NCBI GenBank assembly: GCA_014379815.1
Contig: JACMLA010000144.1
Location: forward strand, 1 to 6,152
Direction: 5' to 3'
Length of the DNA: 6,152 bases
Source of the DNA: Bryobacteraceae bacterium
GTDB taxonomy: Bacteria; Acidobacteriota; Terriglobia; Bryobacterales; Bryobacteraceae
A program made the position numbers and the translations under genes. Position 1 is the first letter of the stretch; each line of letters starts with the position of its first letter. The notes beneath the pieces are model-generated. The model was given only the letters and a program-made list of their open reading frames with translations, did not search any database and was not told where the DNA came from. Below, in pieces: positions 1 to 5,526 of the stretch.

Positions 1-1373
1 AGAAAGACGGCGCTATCAGCCGCGCTGAGCTGGAAAGCTCTGTGATTCATCCGGAAGATCTTGCCAGCTTTCGCTCCGAAATGGAGTGCTCCATTGAGAG
101 CGGGCTGCTGGATGAAATGACTCTCCGGATCCTGAGGAGCGATGGCGAAGTCGGCTGGGTGCAGGTCTCCGGACGCTTCGAGTATGACGCCGACGGTACG
201 CCCCGGAAGTTGATCGGTGTCGCCAGAGACATCACATCGGAACGTCGGGCCGAAGCGGCCCTTCGCCGAAGCGAATCAAGGTTGAGACGCCTGGTAGAAA
301 GCGGCATCATCGGGGTCATGTACTGGGATCTGGACGGCAGTGTTCTGGATGCCAACAACGAGTTCCTGAAGATGGTGGGCTTTACCCGCGGGGAACTCGA
401 AAACGGCGACATCGACTGGCGCGCCATAACCCCACCGGAATGGCAGTCCGCCGACGCTCACGGGATCGGGCAATTGCTTAACGTCGGCAAGATGGAACCA
501 TTCGAGAAGGAATACGTTCGTAAGGACGGGACCCGTGTGCCCGTCCTCCTGGCTGGGGCGATGTTCGAGGACAGTGTGCGTCAGGGAGTGATTCTGGTGC
601 AGGACATCACAGCGCGCAAGGATGCAGAACGAGAGTTAAATAAAACCAACGACGCCTTGCGGCGGGCCAACGCCGATCTCGAGCAGTTCGCTTACTCGGC
701 CTCTCATGATCTAAAGGAACCTCTGCGTATGGTCGGTGCCTTTAGCCAGCTTCTTCAGCGCAGATATCAGGGCAAGCTCGATGGGAAAGCCGACGAGTAT
801 CTTTCGTTTTGTGTAGAAGGCGTCCACCGGATGGAGGACCTGATCCGGGATCTGCTGGCGTTCACGCAGGCCGCCATGCCATCGGAACGTTTCGCAGTCC
901 CGCCGGTTGACACGGTCGCCGTGCTGGGTCGTGCGCTGGAAAACCTGCAAGCCTCCATTGAGGAGACCGATGCCGTGGTCACTCACGACACTCTTCCCTC
1001 GCTTCAGGTGGAAGCCATTCACTTACAGCAACTATTCCAGAATCTGATCGGCAACGCTATCAAGTACCGTAAACTCACCGAAATACCGCGTGTCCACATT
1101 TCTTGTGCGAGGGAGAACGGAGCCTTTATCGTCTCAGTACGAGACAACGGTCTGGGGATCGACTCCCGCTACAAAGATCAGATCTTTGGGCTTTTCAAGA
1201 GATTGAAAGACTCCGCCGACACGACCGGGACAGGAATCGGTCTGGCGATTTGTCAGAAGCTAGTCGAACGCTACAACGGGCGAATTTGGGTCGACTCCGA
1301 GGTTGGAGCGGGTTCCACTTTCCATGTGCTGTTCCCGTTTGAGCAGGAGGTAACGGCGGCCTCTTCAACCTGA
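1..1373 (+). CDS. PAS-domain sensor histidine kinase, 5'-truncated by window edge
   Basis: Two-component sensor kinase that should autophosphorylate on His and pass phosphate to an unlinked response regulator. The frame is open to base 3 with no stop and starts inside a PAS fold, so the true start is upstream; the GTG at 42 is an internal Val. Numbering the 456 visible residues from nt 3: end of a first PAS/PAC unit (HPEDL near 16, PAC ending in DITSERR near 77), second PAS about 92-208, a short linker likely to be a coiled coil, then a HisKA domain with H-box SHDLKEPLR (phospho-acceptor His235). The HATPase domain has an N-box (QNLIGNAIKYR, about 346-356), G1 box DNGLGID (381-387), F-box IFGLFKRL (394-401) and G2 box GTGIGLAI (409-416). 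All catalytic boxes are intact. The H-box resembles phytochrome (Cph1)-type kinases, but no GAF/PHY domain is visible. No membrane segment or receiver domain is seen. Signal and partner are unknown. Confidence 0.93.
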   Translation, partial: KDGAISRAELESSVIHPEDLASFRSEMECSIESGLLDEMTLRILRSDGEVGWVQVSGRFEYDADGTPRKLIGVARDITSERRAEAALRRSESRLRRLVESGIIGVMYWDLDGSVLDANNEFLKMVGFTRGELENGDIDWRAITPPEWQSADAHGIGQLLNVGKMEPFEKEYVRKDGTRVPVLLAGAMFEDSVRQGVILVQDITARKDAERELNKTNDALRRANADLEQFAYSASHDLKEPLRMVGAFSQLLQRRYQGKLDGKADEYLSFCVEGVHRMEDLIRDLLAFTQAAMPSERFAVPPVDTVAVLGRALENLQASIEETDAVVTHDTLPSLQVEAIHLQQLFQNLIGNAIKYRKLTEIPRVHISCARENGAFIVSVRDNGLGIDSRYKDQIFGLFKRLKDSADTTGTGIGLAICQKLVERYNGRIWVDSEVGAGSTFHVLFPFEQEVTAASST

Positions 1374-1405: not shown

Positions 1406-3022
1406 TTAGGGAGCAGCGGGCGCAGGGTTTGCACCTGGCCGGCTTGCAGTACTCTGCGCAACCAGACGGTTTGAGCCGCTCGCAGCTACCAGCGCTCTTG
1501 CAAAGTCTTCGTCGGTAGTGCGCTCGAGGATGGTTCGGACGTGGTACCACTCGCCTTGTGCGCGCTCACGGTCGACATCCATTAAAAGGTACCCGCGCCG
1601 GAACAGTTCTACGTACTTGACGTGTGGATGAGTTGCGCCGATCTGTGCCTGCAGGCCATCTGCCTGCGCACGGTCGTCGATGCCAGGAGAAGAAACCGCC
1701 GGTGTCACAAATTCGACTGCCAGTGGATTGTACCCGGTCGGAAGGAACGGATTTCCTGCGATCTCGTTCCCCCATGACGAGTGAATATCGCCCGTGAGTA
1801 CAACCACATTATTGATGTTGTTTGTGGCGATTGTCTGGAGAAGGCGATTGCGGGACGCGACATAGCCATCCCATTGGTCGGAATTGAACGGCGCGCCATC
1901 GGCTCCGACAAGTTGCCCCATCATCGTCTGCTGTCCCAGTAAACGCCATTGGGTGCCGCGGCCCTGCGAAGTGCCTAGCTGGTAGTTGAGCCACGCTTCC
2001 TGATCCGGCCCCATAAGTGACCGGCTTTGATCGAAGATGGCAGGGCTGGTGGTTACTACCTGCTGACTCCGACCCGCCAGCCGGGTGTCGAGCATGATGA
2101 GATCGATCAGGCTGCCAAATCGGAAGTTGCGATAGATCTCGCCGTTGACATACGGATTCGCGCGCACCGGCATCCATTCAAACCAGGCCTGCGCAGAAAC
2201 CGCGCGCCGGGGTGACCATGCGCCCTCTGTGTCGGGCTGATGATTTTCTGCGCCTTCCTTCCACGAATCGTTGGTGGATTCATGATCGTCCCAGACTACG
2301 ATCGTGGCGTGCTGGCGATGCATCTCCTGCAGATCCTGATCGCTACGGTATTGCGCATAACGGGTGCGGTAATCCGACAAGGTGGAGATTTCCTTGTCTG
2401 GAGCGGGCACACGGTTCAGAGGAGTGCCATTGCCGTACTGCCGGTTTGCGTATTCGTAAATGTAATCGCCGAGGTGCAGGACAAAGTCGAGGTCACGGCG
2501 ATTCGCAACCAGCCGGTAGGTATTGAAATAGCCGTAGGGAAGGTTGGAACAGGAAACTACGGCAAAGCGGGCCCGTTCGACTGACGCGAGGGGCAGAGTC
2601 TTTGTTCGCCCAACTGGCGAGGAACTGCCGCGAAACGTAAAGCGGTAATAATAAGTCGTTGCTGGATTCAAGCGCTCCACGTCGACCTTGACTGTGTAGT
2701 CGAAGTTCCCGTTGGTGTAGGTGAGGCCCCTCTGGGCATTGCGGCTGAAATTAGCGTCCTCCGCAATAACCCACTCCACGGGAATGACTTCTTCGTCTGA
2801 GGTGGTGGTTAGCCGGGTCCAGATAACGACGCGGTTGAGAAGCGGGTCTCCACTGGCCACGCCGTGCTGAAAGATTCCGGAGTTCTGGGCTTCCGCGTTA
2901 CGCCGCAGGGAAGCACCTGCCGCCGCCGTGGTCAGGATCTGAGTGAATGCTCTACGTGAGACTGGCACAGCTACACAGGATGTCACCCTTTTGTTGATTT
3001 GTTGATTAATTCTGAGTGTCAA
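1406..3022 (-). CDS. phoD: PhoD-like alkaline phosphatase/phosphodiesterase, Tat-exported
   Basis: Metallophosphoesterase of the PhoD family, which hydrolyses phosphodiesters and monoesters outside the cytoplasm to release phosphate. The 538 residues are close to family length. An N-terminal Tat signal has the twin arginine in SRRAF (Arg23-Arg24), an Ala-rich hydrophobic stretch and a plausible AEA|Q cleavage site near 45. A PhoD_N beta-sandwich follows (about 50-145), starting FQHGVASGDP. The catalytic domain has SCS (Cys158), GDYIYEY (185-191, Asp186/Tyr189), WDDHE (244-248), a GQQTMMG stretch (363-369) and GDIHSSW (411-417, Asp412/His414). These match the Fe/Ca ligand pattern known for Bacillus PhoD. 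The C-terminus is a Pro/Ala-rich tail. The start is uncertain: no ATG precedes the signal. TTG at 3022 gives the longest form, while GTG at 2986 or 2968 keeps the Tat motif. None has a well-spaced Shine-Dalgarno. The gene is divergent from the propeller gene. Confidence 0.93.
   Translation of the reverse strand: MTLRINQQINKRVTSCVAVPVSRRAFTQILTTAAAGASLRRNAEAQNSGIFQHGVASGDPLLNRVVIWTRLTTTSDEEVIPVEWVIAEDANFSRNAQRGLTYTNGNFDYTVKVDVERLNPATTYYYRFTFRGSSSPVGRTKTLPLASVERARFAVVSCSNLPYGYFNTYRLVANRRDLDFVLHLGDYIYEYANRQYGNGTPLNRVPAPDKEISTLSDYRTRYAQYRSDQDLQEMHRQHATIVVWDDHESTNDSWKEGAENHQPDTEGAWSPRRAVSAQAWFEWMPVRANPYVNGEIYRNFRFGSLIDLIMLDTRLAGRSQQVVTTSPAIFDQSRSLMGPDQEAWLNYQLGTSQGRGTQWRLLGQQTMMGQLVGADGAPFNSDQWDGYVASRNRLLQTIATNNINNVVVLTGDIHSSWGNEIAGNPFLPTGYNPLAVEFVTPAVSSPGIDDRAQADGLQAQIGATHPHVKYVELFRRGYLLMDVDRERAQGEWYHVRTILERTTDEDFARALVAASGSNRLVAQSTASRPGANPAPAAP
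2992..3007. repeat. Tandem 8-bp direct repeat upstream of or within phoD 5' end
   Basis: TGTTGATT occurs twice head to tail (2992-2999 and 3000-3007) in an AT-rich patch of the phoD/propeller divergent region. If phoD starts at GTG 2986, the repeat lies in its 5' untranslated region. If it starts at TTG 3022, the repeat encodes residues 6-10 (NQQIN). A regulator site is possible, but the sequence does not resemble the Pho box familiar from Proteobacteria. Confidence 0.4.
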
Positions 3023-3059: not shown

Positions 3060-4694
3060 ATGAAGTGGTGGCTGTTTGCGATTTTCGCTCCACTGCTGTG
3101 CGGTCAACAGAATCAGGTCCAGTTCAGCACCTGGTTTGGCGGGTTAGATATCGATAACGGCAACGCCGTTGCGGTGGGACCGGATGGAGACATTTGGTTC
3201 GCCGGCTCCACACGATCCCTTAATTTTCCAGTCAGAAACGCCTTCCAGCCTCGATGTGGAGGTGGCAGCGGCGGGTGTCAGGACGGCTTTCTTGCGCGTG
3301 TCAGCGCCGATGGCAGGACGGTACGCTTCGCCACTTACCTGGGCGGAACTGGCAATGACTTCGTTAGTGCCATTGTTCTCGATGGCAACGGCGATTCCTA
3401 CGTGACCGGACTCTTCGAAGGTGGAGCGTTAATTGCCCGCTTCGATGGCGATGGTCGTCCAGTGTTTGCAAAGACGCTGGAGGGCTCGCAAGGTATGCGA
3501 GGTACCGCAATCGCTCGTGATCCTCTGGGCAACATCTGTGTCGCGGCATCTTCGGACCGAAGTCTTGTCGCTAGAGTGTCGGGCACAGGATCGGTCCTGT
3601 TCTCGAGATTGCTGCCTGAAGGTGCAGAAGCGATTACGGTAGCTGGGAATGCGCGTGGTCATCTGTTCGTTGGCGGTATCACCAGCAGCGAAAGAGCATT
3701 TCTGTACGATGTCGCTCCAGTGGAAGGTGCCGAGGCTCTCGTGACGATAATCGAGTCACCCTTTGTCTGGCGACTTGTGAGCAGCATCCACGTCGAAACG
3801 GGCGGAACGCTGATACTGACGGGCGAGTCGAGATTCGGCGGTGTAGCCGCCAGGTTTGACCCAACCAATCACAAGATGCTGCAGGACCAGCGCGCTGGGT
3901 CGTCATTGGGCAGGGCTACGCTGTCCCGCGCGGGGGTCCTTACCGGAGGCGTGGGCAACCTCGTGCAGGTGAACACTGCAGACTGGCGCTTCGTGAATGT
4001 CGGAGGAGTCGGAGCCTTCATCCAGCAGGCAACACAGGCGTCCGACGGCAGCCTCGTTGTCACGGGTACGGCGACAGCGTTTACAAGTTTTCTGCGTCCG
4101 GTGGAAGCCTTACAGGAGAGGAGCGGTGGTCTGGACGACGCATATCTCATGAGACTGATGCCCTTTGCGCGTCCTGTTGCCACAGCAGTGAACGCAGCCA
4201 GTTTCACAGGTCCGTTTGTGGCGCCTGGCAGCATCGTATCGGTATTCCTGAATCAACCGGCAGACGAAGTCCGGGTCAGTGATGTCCGGGCTGAGGTCCT
4301 TTATAACGGGTCAGGTCAGATCAACTTCGTCGTACCCAGTCAAGTGGTTCCAGGACCAGTGCAAGTCAAGTTGTTGCAGGAAGGTCGTGAGATCGCGGCA
4401 GTGACCCTAATCGTCCATCCGGTCGCGCCTGGAATCTTCACCGCAGTCGGCAACCAGGAAGTAGTCACGGCTTATGGAACCGGGATTCGGAACCGTAGCT
4501 CGCCGGAGCGCGTTCGCGTCTTTCTTTCAGGAGTGGAACTGCCGGTGACCTATGCAGGACCGCAGTCTGAATACCCCGGCCTGGACCAGGTAAATTTCTC
4601 ATTGCCCGAGACGCTGCGGAGCCAAAATGAATTGGATTTCGTTCTTAGTGTCGACGGCAGGCTAAGCAATCCTGTACGATTTACTATTCGTTAG
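3060..4694 (+). CDS. Secreted SBBP beta-propeller protein with Solibacter-type C-terminal domain
   Basis: Secreted or surface protein of unknown function, 544 residues. The N-terminus MKWWLFAIFAPLLCGQQ is a short signal peptide with likely cleavage near 15-17. Cys14 does not fit a good lipobox. Residues about 20-120 carry SBBP-type propeller repeats: FSTWFGG followed by AVAVGPDGDIWFAGSTRSLNFP and NAFQP, then FATYLGGTGNDF with IVLDGNGDSYVTG. A Cys pair in a Gly-rich loop (Cys66, Cys73) sits between them. Residues 120-365 are degenerate repeats of the same kind, with recurring VTG/VGG strand ends. Residues about 376-543 (NAASF, VAPGSIVSVF, GQINFVVP, VAPGIFTA, YAGPQSEYPGLDQVNFSLP) match the C-terminal module I know from Solibacter proteins (TIGR03437-like), here in a compact form. 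The domain calls are from pattern recognition and are fairly sure. Function is not known; binding of a carbohydrate or a cell-surface partner is only a guess. Confidence 0.88.
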   Translation: MKWWLFAIFAPLLCGQQNQVQFSTWFGGLDIDNGNAVAVGPDGDIWFAGSTRSLNFPVRNAFQPRCGGGSGGCQDGFLARVSADGRTVRFATYLGGTGNDFVSAIVLDGNGDSYVTGLFEGGALIARFDGDGRPVFAKTLEGSQGMRGTAIARDPLGNICVAASSDRSLVARVSGTGSVLFSRLLPEGAEAITVAGNARGHLFVGGITSSERAFLYDVAPVEGAEALVTIIESPFVWRLVSSIHVETGGTLILTGESRFGGVAARFDPTNHKMLQDQRAGSSLGRATLSRAGVLTGGVGNLVQVNTADWRFVNVGGVGAFIQQATQASDGSLVVTGTATAFTSFLRPVEALQERSGGLDDAYLMRLMPFARPVATAVNAASFTGPFVAPGSIVSVFLNQPADEVRVSDVRAEVLYNGSGQINFVVPSQVVPGPVQVKLLQEGREIAAVTLIVHPVAPGIFTAVGNQEVVTAYGTGIRNRSSPERVRVFLSGVELPVTYAGPQSEYPGLDQVNFSLPETLRSQNELDFVLSVDGRLSNPVRFTIR

Positions 4695-4717: not shown

Positions 4718-4990
4718 ATGGACGAGCGCGCGTTTTACACCGAAACTCAAGCTACGAAGTCTGCCACGCTGAACTGTCCGAGTTGCCACTCCGCGGAGGA
4801 GTATCCGTTGCGATGGGTGGTTCGGAAGAAGAAAGAACGTCTGCCGCCGGGTGCCGACGAGCGTGGCCGTGCCCAGTTTGCCAAGTGGCAAAGCTACATG
4901 GTTCTGGTCGATGACAAAGTAACTTGCGCGAACGCACGCTGCCGGAAACGCTTCGACATCTCCGGTATCAAAACGACCGCGTTCCTCTGA
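4718..4990 (+). CDS. Small conserved hypothetical protein with two Cys pairs (probable zinc ribbon)
   Basis: A 90-residue cytoplasmic protein with no signal peptide or membrane segment. It has CPSC (Cys20, Cys23) near the N-terminus and a second pair, C-x4-C (Cys70, Cys75, CANARC), near the C-terminus. Two separated Cys pairs suggest one tetrahedral zinc site of the zinc-ribbon kind. The middle is basic (RKKKER, 36-41), followed by a GADERGRAQFAKWQSYMVLVDD segment that looks strongly constrained. I have a sense of having seen this family in Acidobacteria but cannot name it, and no function should be assigned. Nucleic-acid binding is possible from the Cys pairs plus basic patch. ATG at 4718 is the only sensible start. 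The gene lies 23 nt after the propeller gene and ends 6 nt before the his promoter, whose upstream region overlaps its last codons. Confidence 0.8.
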   Translation: MDERAFYTETQATKSATLNCPSCHSAEEYPLRWVVRKKKERLPPGADERGRAQFAKWQSYMVLVDDKVTCANARCRKRFDISGIKTTAFL

Positions 4991-4996
4991 TCTGCA

Positions 4997-5005
4997 TGTT
5001 ATACT
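4997..5005 (+). promoter_or_regulatory. Extended -10 promoter of the his operon
   Basis: TGTTATACT is an extended -10: TGn at 4997-4999 followed by TATACT at 5000-5005, 5 of 6 matches to TATAAT. The hexamer at the -35 position with 17-bp spacing (4977-4982, CCGCGT) shows no match, which is tolerable for an extended -10 promoter. The predicted transcription start is about 5011-5014, at or just before the leader ATG at 5014. The position directly upstream of the leader peptide and attenuator supports the assignment. Confidence 0.65.
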
Positions 5006-5013
5006 TCGGGTTC

Positions 5014-5061
5014 ATGTACAGGCACGGGCATCTTCACCATCACCGGCATCATCTGCCGTAA
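5014..5061 (+). CDS. hisL: Histidine operon leader peptide (7 His in 15 residues)
   Basis: A 15-codon ORF encoding MYRHGHLHHHRHHLP, stop TAA at 5059-5061. Seven of 15 codons are His (positions 4, 6, 8, 9, 10, 12, 13). It lies just upstream of an intrinsic terminator and of hisI-hisG, the arrangement of a his attenuator leader in which the peptide serves only as a sensor of charged His-tRNA. An in-frame ATG at 4996 would give 21 residues but overlaps the -10 element, so 5014 is preferred. No good Shine-Dalgarno precedes it (only CGGG three bases before the ATG), and it may be translated from a leaderless transcript. A 5-bp hairpin, CGGCA (5044-5048) with TGCCG (5054-5058), overlaps the last His codons and could act as a pause hairpin. 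The ORF is too short for ordinary gene calling, but its His content and context are hard to explain by chance. Confidence 0.88.
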   Translation: MYRHGHLHHHRHHLP

Positions 5062-5109
5062 TGGGCTGAGCTCTCTTCACTGGAACGGATTCTTGAGCAA
5101 ACAAGCCCG
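5062..5109 (+). promoter_or_regulatory. his antiterminator structure
   Basis: GGGCT (5063-5067) pairs with AGCCC (5104-5108), extended by a U5062-G5109 wobble. After an internal loop, GCTC (5070-5073) pairs with GAGC (5095-5098). This fold uses 5104-5109 of the 5' arm of the terminator (5103-5111), so the two are mutually exclusive. The 5' strand starts one base after the leader stop codon. A ribosome resting on that stop would cover it and favour termination, while a ribosome stalled on the His codons would leave it free. Pairings were found by eye and no folding energy was computed. Confidence 0.7.
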
Positions 5110-5145
5110 CGGCACCGATACCGGTCGCGGGCTTTTTCTTTTTCT
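5103..5145 (+). terminator. his attenuator (Rho-independent terminator)
   Basis: AAGCCCGCG (5103-5111) is the exact reverse complement of CGCGGGCTT (5126-5134), a 9-bp GC-rich stem. Above a 2-nt bulge (GC, 5112-5113), ACCG (5114-5117) pairs with CGGT (5122-5125), closing a 4-nt loop. The T-tract TTTTTCTTTTTCT (5133-5145) follows at once. A strong intrinsic terminator between a His-rich leader ORF and hisI is the regulatory switch of the operon. The T-tract ends on the base before the hisI ATG, so terminated transcripts contain no hisI coding sequence. Confidence 0.9.
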
Positions 5146-5526
5146 ATGAACCTCGATTTTTCCAAGCTAGACGGCCTCGTAGCCGCCGTTATCCAGGACC
5201 ACCAATCCGGTCGCGTTCTGATGGTCGGCTTCATGAATGAAGCGGCTTTTCGCCAGACAGTGGAGACCGGGTTTGCGACGTTCTACAGCCGCTCCCGTGA
5301 CAAGCTCTGGCTCAAAGGGGAATCATCCGGCCACAAGCTCATCGTGAAAGACATTGCAACGGATTGCGATGCCGACAGCGTATTGGTTCGGGTGGAGGCT
5401 GTCGGGCCGGGCGTGTGTCATGAGGGCTATGAGAGTTGCTACTACAGGCATCTGGTGGATGGTGTCTGGACTGAGAATGAGGAGAAGACTTACGATCCAT
5501 CGGCCGTCTATGGGAGTGCCCGTTAA
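5146..5526 (+). CDS. hisI: Phosphoribosyl-AMP cyclohydrolase (monofunctional HisI)
   Basis: Third step of histidine biosynthesis: hydrolytic opening of the adenine ring of PR-AMP to give ProFAR, in the cytoplasm as a zinc enzyme. The 126 residues cover only the PRA-CH domain; there is no HisE (PR-ATP pyrophosphatase) fusion. Family motifs are present in order: LVAAVIQD with GRVLMVGFMNEAA (11-34), FYSRSR (46-51), LWLKGESSGH (54-63), the metal cluster DCDAD (73-77, Asp73/Asp75/Asp77 and Cys74), and GPGVCHEGYESCYYR with Cys91 and Cys98. Known zinc and magnesium ligands are therefore all present. ATG at 5146 follows the attenuator T-tract directly and no Shine-Dalgarno is visible, yet the homology-supported N-terminus (LDFSKLDGL) confirms this start. 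The stop TAA abuts the hisG ATG. Expression should be controlled by the upstream leader-peptide attenuator. Confidence 0.96.
   Translation: MNLDFSKLDGLVAAVIQDHQSGRVLMVGFMNEAAFRQTVETGFATFYSRSRDKLWLKGESSGHKLIVKDIATDCDADSVLVRVEAVGPGVCHEGYESCYYRHLVDGVWTENEEKTYDPSAVYGSAR

Follow-up and report, generated by a model that had tools for sequence, protein, structure and literature searches.

The histidine leader of enterobacteria (Rfam RF00514, His_leader) combines a short ORF of histidine codons with mutually exclusive antiterminator and terminator structures ahead of the his operon, and the leader analysed here, in front of the hisI-hisG operon of a probable acidobacterium, resembles it in these respects. 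The accessible text of PMC9413887 places his attenuators in Gammaproteobacteria and predicts others in three Firmicutes lineages, and that of PMC2965389 places predicted his leader attenuators before two hisS paralogs of bacilli. Like the present leader, the Firmicutes cases lie outside Gammaproteobacteria and were recognised from a His-rich ORF, an antiterminator and a terminator; they belong to another phylum and to small groups of species, and the portions of the sources at hand do not describe a leaderless architecture for them. In the same portion of PMC9413887, RF00514 has no occurrence in Firmicutes either. Leader-peptide attenuation is known from Actinobacteria as well, where the text available from PMC1262725 gives no case for histidine, whereas seven actinobacterial loci in our survey have a his leader. 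The trpL attenuator of Sinorhizobium meliloti, whose leader RNA begins directly with the ATG of its ORF according to the accessible part of PMC7298713, is leaderless likewise, but it serves Trp in Alphaproteobacteria and its start is experimentally known, whereas the acidobacterial start is predicted. As far as the accessible portion of PMC4833913 goes, short leader genes near structural genes occur in Acidobacteria among others, the his leader not being one of them; in 2010 almost no acidobacterial attenuator had a function, according to the part of PMC2965389 at hand. The literature that could be consulted, in part as excerpts, yielded no description of a his attenuator in Acidobacteriota, a claim of limited reach given that Lopatovskaya et al. 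2010 (Mol Biol 44:128-139) may list Acidobacteria.

The 6,152-nt stretch of DNA analysed here (the window) contains ordinary neighbours in its first part, namely a PAS histidine kinase (3-1373, forward strand), a PhoD-like phosphatase (1406-3022, reverse strand) and a protein with an SBBP beta-propeller repeat (3060-4694, forward strand). A 90-residue cysteine-containing protein is encoded at 4718-4990 and ends 9 nt before the TATACT hexamer discussed below; it had no Pfam match, and no match in loci L001-L309 at an E value of 1e-4. The leader ORF, MYRHGHLHHHRHHLP, follows on the forward strand at 5014-5061 (ATG at 5014, TAA at 5059-5061) and has the 15 codons and seven histidines from which the original prediction set out. 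Codons 4, 6, 8, 9, 10, 12 and 13 are for histidine (5023-5052, the codons starting at 5023, 5029, 5035, 5038, 5041, 5047 and 5050), and the run is thus interrupted, 7 of 15, as compared to seven in a row in the enteric leader (PMC3896937, accessible text). Among the short ORFs of the window, the best count of histidines in ten residues is 7 on the forward and 2 on the reverse strand, and it lay between 2 and 4 in 200 dinucleotide shuffles of the window; a chance ORF is excluded by this comparison. Downstream, hisI (phosphoribosyl-AMP cyclohydrolase, 5146-5526, forward strand; PF01502, 103 bits), the first regulated gene, is joined by hisG (ATP phosphoribosyltransferase, from 5527, forward strand, to 6152 and on past the window end; PF01634, 150 bits), as had been proposed, and the hisG match begins 250-1200 nt past the hisI start in all 71 loci L001-L071. 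The closest HisI, 78% identical to that of the window, is from a Bryobacterales metagenome-assembled genome (MAG), and the nearest rows in the HisI tree are Bryobacterales or of the same order.

Folding bears out the perfect 9-bp terminator stem with its T tract. The hairpin spans 5103-5134 on the forward strand (-21.2 kcal/mol) and consists of an outer stem of 9 bp (5103-5111/5126-5134, AAGCCCGCG/CGCGGGCTT) and an inner stem of 4 bp (5114-5117/5122-5125), with a T-rich tail at 5133-5143; a simple terminator scan of the window, with its loop limit of 3-8, missed it. The fold of the leader is better than that of its own shuffles (z = -2.3; 5 of 200 as good). The antiterminator had been placed at 5062-5073 and 5095-5109. 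It is found there, and this description was incomplete: the helix predicted for a ribosome held at His4 or at His8-His10 comprises 15 pairs in three blocks, between strand 2 (5054-5073, forward) and strand 3 (5095-5114, forward), and the stretch so freed folds at -22.6 to -23.1 kcal/mol, compared to -21.2 for the terminator hairpin by itself. The blocks pair 5054-5059 with 5109-5114 (UGCCGU/GCGGCA), 5063-5067 with 5104-5108 (GGGCU/AGCCC) and 5070-5073 with 5095-5098 (GCUC/GAGC). Strand 2 overlaps the last leader codons and the stop codon, and strand 3 takes in the greater part of the terminator's 5' arm. By prediction the antiterminator excludes the terminator; taken alone, the antiterminator has -21.9 kcal/mol. 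The duplex of strands 2 and 3 in the window has -18.8 kcal/mol as compared to -13.0 for shuffled sequences (12 of 500 as low). A His-rich ORF, a terminator before the first gene and an exclusive antiterminator, the last by prediction and by coevolution in the family, are thus all found, and the leader of the hisI-hisG operon is understood as a ribosome-mediated transcription attenuator, a reading to which we assign a probability of about 0.92.

Membership in the described RNA family is another matter. The RF00514 model scores 23.7 bits on the window (E = 1.3), below the cut-off of 49, which places the leader outside the Rfam His_leader family, and none of the 20 relatives examined reached the gathering threshold; comparison to this covariance model had been suggested along with the original prediction. 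The same type of search bears on control of hisI by a tRNA-sensing T-box, or by another ligand-binding riboswitch, with the ORF of secondary importance. T-boxes do the same job in Firmicutes and are reported or proposed in Actinobacteria (PMC9413887 and PMC3896937, as far as accessible). No T-box or riboswitch model matched the window up to E = 5, and in the 20 leader loci searched none reached gathering; nor was a match to another known RNA family accepted. From the start codon, the leaders extend for a median of 99 nt (5-95% range 82-116) to the terminator, which seems too short to hold a full T-box. Such a control is considered extremely improbable. A match of ctRNA_p42d over the terminator (22.5 bits, cut-off 50) is taken as chance, because it covered only the generic hairpin and T run.

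Attenuation by the leader peptide is supported by conservation around the window's relatives. An ORF counted as a leader if it lay no more than 420 nt from hisI and had four or more His in a stretch of 10 residues. Among 80 named HisI loci, mostly of Acidobacteriota, mostly from metagenome assemblies and many labelled Bryobacterales, 71 have such an ORF just 5' of hisI by the criterion and 70 in effect, since L021 is spurious, its ORF sitting upstream of the promoter-like hexamer and lacking a His run. The named loci without a leader are L013, L017, L021, L035, L079 and, in distant bacteria, L072, L075, L077, L078 and L080; the contig of L035 begins inside a His-rich reading frame. L021 was counted by the His-ORF criterion and among the 142 leaders scanned for terminators, and was omitted from the pairing and promoter counts. 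In the order of genome G001 (the genome of L002), HisI was found in 141 of 150 genomes, and 45 of the 51 loci examined from these 141 (the best-scoring 30, G175 and 20 spread over the ranking, several being genomes of named loci) have a His-rich ORF at hisI. The search for His-rich ORFs upstream of hisI in near relatives thus turned out in favour of the attenuator. Taken over all 220 sequences (219 loci and the window, in overlapping sets and with one spurious case), 152 have a His-rich ORF within 420 nt of hisI. For background, the same criterion picked up 7 ORFs when applied to 530 kb of same-strand sequence lying farther upstream, and 9 when applied to the reverse strands over 1,008 kb.

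These numbers argue against the idea that the hairpin terminates upstream transcription, that hisI has another promoter and that the ORF either arose by chance or encodes a microprotein that binds metals. Metal binding is conceivable for short peptides rich in His, and the hairpin makes an intrinsic terminator by itself; yet the ORF goes with early his genes and is seldom met elsewhere in the DNA compared, His runs and strand pairing are maintained through changes of the peptide sequence, and a separate hisI promoter is disfavoured by the promoter-like hexamer upstream of the ORF and by the gap of just 11 nt between stem and hisI in the window. We regard this explanation as very unlikely. Several loci show the leader in other states, and loss of the ORF in the first three counts against the attenuator. 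In L021, in L079 and in its near-copy L131, the TATACT hexamer and the terminator are kept and the intervening leader ORF is missing as if deleted; these operons may be constantly attenuated. Seen by eye, the leaders of L116 and L206 have only two or three His codons and L215 has ACG at the position expected for the start codon, and these three may be decaying or have unusual initiation. In L081, of a Bryobacterales genome, an Rfam 6S RNA match (55.5 bits against a cut-off of 46.4) covers positions 2100-2296, on the opposite strand and some 80 nt upstream of where the leader begins.

Two features go beyond what had been expected for the leader and set it apart from the enteric one, namely a probably leaderless start and an antiterminator strand that overlaps the tail of the ORF in many leaders. 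An extended -10-like element, TGT-TATACT, is located at 4997-5005 on the forward strand of the window, 8 nt before the ATG; no -35 element was seen by eye at 17 bp spacing from it, and a strict sigma-70 scan of the window listed no promoter. Across the 141 leaders used for architecture (142 distinct leaders less L021, with peptides of 14-31 residues and 4-10 His), 134 have a TANNNT hexamer 5-11 nt ahead of the start codon, compared to 13.9 +- 3.4 in mononucleotide shuffles, and in 114 the -10-like hexamer is at 8-9 nt. The extended TGN accompanies the hexamer in 86 of the 141, and TTGA or TTGC is present at 16-18 bp in 38. A Shine-Dalgarno core was found at 3 of the 141 leader starts (6.6 in shuffled sequence) as compared to 28 of the 141 hisI starts. 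In the accessible text of PMC3160421, leaderless genes are recognised by such a hexamer some 12 bp ahead of the start codon, and they average 13.3% for three Acidobacteria. The hexamer of the his leaders has its first T at 14-15 nt upstream, slightly beyond these ~12, and the 5' UTR is accordingly estimated at 0 to about 3 nt. Given the hexamer at 8-9 nt in 114 of 141 cases, the message is probably leaderless and translation probably starts at or near its first base.

A script called the terminator, a hairpin with T run, in 136 of the 142 distinct leaders; L033, L083, L086, L106, L114 and L200 failed, L083 and L086 having no T run at all, and some accepted calls (e.g., L028, L108 and L146) have a wrong or weak look. 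The few leaders without a good T run, such as L083 and L086, would suit a ribosome-operated switch that acts through the translation of hisI or through Rho in place of an intrinsic terminator; the hairpin and T run in the great majority, together with a hisI start that frequently lies past the T run and outside the hairpin, make such a switch very improbable. In many relatives strand 2 lies within the codons of the peptide tail. It is often CGACGGGCN (Arg-Arg-Ala) opposite AGCCCGYCG in the window's group, and GCGTGTTGGCGG opposite CCGCTAACGCGC in a second acidobacterial group, the two strands changing together; the covarying strands of L092 are GTGTCAGCGG/CCGCTGGCAC.

Pairing was evaluated for 136 leaders, L012, L083, L086, L108 and the window not matching the core pattern; the window was added by hand to the permutation and ribosome-position sets and was tested alone for its own against foreign strands 2. 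The duplex of a leader's own strand 2 with strand 3 averages -21.8 kcal/mol, compared to -16.0 with shuffled strand 2, and z is below -1 in 118 of the 136. Among 76 representatives (less than about 70% identity), own partners give -21.88 and permuted partners -18.97 kcal/mol, and 0 of 5000 permutations were as low; the compensatory change looked for in the stems is thus borne out over the leader family. Own strands pair better than swapped ones at strand 3 positions -6 to -2 and +6 to +8, with several pair types, and there is no or nearly no such gain at -8, -7 and +9 to +13; the conserved CCCGCC core pairs about equally with the strand 2 of foreign leaders. The own strand 2 has a median rank of 25 among 136, and for the strand 3 of the window, 52 of 136 foreign strands 2 pair as well or better. 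With the gain confined to some positions and the median rank of 25, coevolution of strands 2 and 3 is solid for the family but modest in effect.

To explore the consequence for switching, truncated transcripts were folded at equilibrium on the assumption that the ribosome covers 12 nt counted from the A-site codon. The predicted mean sequestration of strand 3 is 0.71 with the ribosome on a His codon as compared to 0.25 at the stop codon; it is higher on His codons in 137 of 137 leaders, and by more than 0.2 in 118. For the last His codon alone the values are 0.61 and 0.25, with the former higher in 127 of the 137. In the window, sequestration is predicted at 0.86-0.88 for the earlier His codons, 0.41 at the last His codon, 0.19 at Leu14 and 0.04 at Pro15, and at 0.36-0.39 for the stop codon, where it reflects other, weaker pairing; the contrast with the stop is almost gone for His12-His13. 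Since the outer antiterminator block overlaps with the final codons and the stop codon, the helix is expected to be disrupted once a ribosome has moved beyond the His codons.

In the mechanism that we propose, transcription would start at or a few bases from the leader AUG, as the -10 position suggests, and the ribosome would thus load at the message's 5' end with no need of a Shine-Dalgarno site. Under a shortage of charged His-tRNA it would stall in the His codons and leave strand 2 free to pair with strand 3, so that no terminator would form and the polymerase would enter hisI; with His-tRNA plentiful, the ribosome would reach the stop and cover strand 2, strand 3 would pair with strand 4, and transcription would stop at the T tract. 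Start, stalling and histidine response are the conditional elements of this scheme, and the parts, their conservation, their spacing and, across the family, the coevolution of strands 2 and 3 are those observed. In enteric leaders, a protector (1:2) hairpin gives termination in the absence of translation. In the naked acidobacterial leaders, equilibrium folding predicts a strand 3 sequestration of 0.62 as compared to 0.71 in the stalled state, lower in 90 of 137 leaders and by more than 0.2 in only 38; the model thus hints, as a lead only, that absent translation may mean readthrough, unlike in enteric leaders.

Across the phylum, HisI was matched in 128 of 197 genomes, and among the best-scoring 90, which were examined, 37 have the leader at hisI. 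They are distributed as 28 of 30 in L081-L110, 9 of 10 in L140-L149 and 0 of 50 in L150-L199, the HisI matches of the last set being weaker and often within long reading frames. HisG is present in all 30 genomes searched out of these fifty, and in 17 of the 30 it shares the strand of hisI and is found some 5-6.3 kb upstream. That this part of the phylum lacks the leader had to be rejected, for 12 of the 30 have a His-rich ORF at or upstream of hisG: just 5' of hisG in nine (L222-L225, L227, L229, L230, L234 and L236) and about 1.1-1.5 kb upstream in three (L233, L242 and L246). The gene between leader and hisG was looked at in two of these three, L233 and L246, and is HisZ-like by Pfam in both. 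The other 18 of the 30, without a leader at hisI, have no His-rich leader at hisG. The 37 cases at hisI and the 12 at or upstream of hisG amount to a leader in at least 49 of the 90 genomes, and wherever it was found, an early operon gene comes next, be it hisI, hisG or a HisZ-like gene followed by hisG, which differs from the enteric arrangement. To judge from sequence, the attenuator in front of hisI is not a one-off; it is repeated across Acidobacteriota. This conservation, together with strand coevolution, supports the prediction that an acidobacterium has a his attenuator of the leader-peptide type, and of the two readings offered with that prediction, an underreported system fits better than a single convergent oddity.

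The wider spread of the leader was examined at hisI only. Among 30 loci from the order to which the Acidimicrobium MAG of L068 belongs, 1 has it, namely that MAG itself, and among 30 from the class that includes the Fimbriimonadaceae MAG of L073, 4 have it; a nearby ORF in L276 has no terminator and is taken as chance. Of the seven actinobacterial loci with a leader, six are labelled or placed as Acidimicrobiaceae and one is labelled only Actinobacteria. Their HisI fork with rows of Acidobacteriota and one Chthoniobacterales-labelled row at a support of 87/89, which is below the strong mark, and ten HisI from loci of the L068 order without a His leader form a clade of their own, away from the seven. 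Transfer of hisI together with its leader would be the simplest reading, which a tree of 124 columns cannot settle. Genome G350, the Chthoniobacterales-labelled MAG of locus L012 (1099-1476), has two HisI matches 70% identical to that of the window and a His-rich leader; its contigs are possibly mis-binned.

Other amino acids were considered in part. Trp-rich leaders were absent before TrpE-family matches in all 30 loci inspected. Among the 30 ilvB-family loci of the same order (L340-L369), 13 have a short ORF rich in Ile, Leu and Val in the 500 nt before the match, about 160-275 nt upstream, and the reverse strands of the 30 loci have 7 such ORFs in all; in L341 and L345 the ORF is followed by a hairpin and a T run. 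A branched-chain attenuator is therefore likely. Extended to the whole, one may tentatively envisage an old, widespread class of leaderless attenuators in Acidobacteriota, in which the naked leader antiterminates and termination requires a ribosome to travel from the 5'-terminal AUG to the stop codon, serving his and probably ilvB and having reached some Acidimicrobiia and Armatimonadota together with hisI; as a composite proposal it is possible, though we would sooner doubt than assume it.

Lastly, the acidobacterial leader very probably works like the enteric his leader while being probably leaderless and outside the Rfam His_leader family. More than 100 distinct acidobacterial examples suggest that his attenuation is much commoner than the Rfam model shows, and they give a likely function to attenuators of a phylum in which hardly any function was on record for them in 2010. 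Two questions are thereby made testable: how ribosome and polymerase are coupled on a leaderless message, and whether his leaders have been inherited, reinvented or transferred together with the operon.
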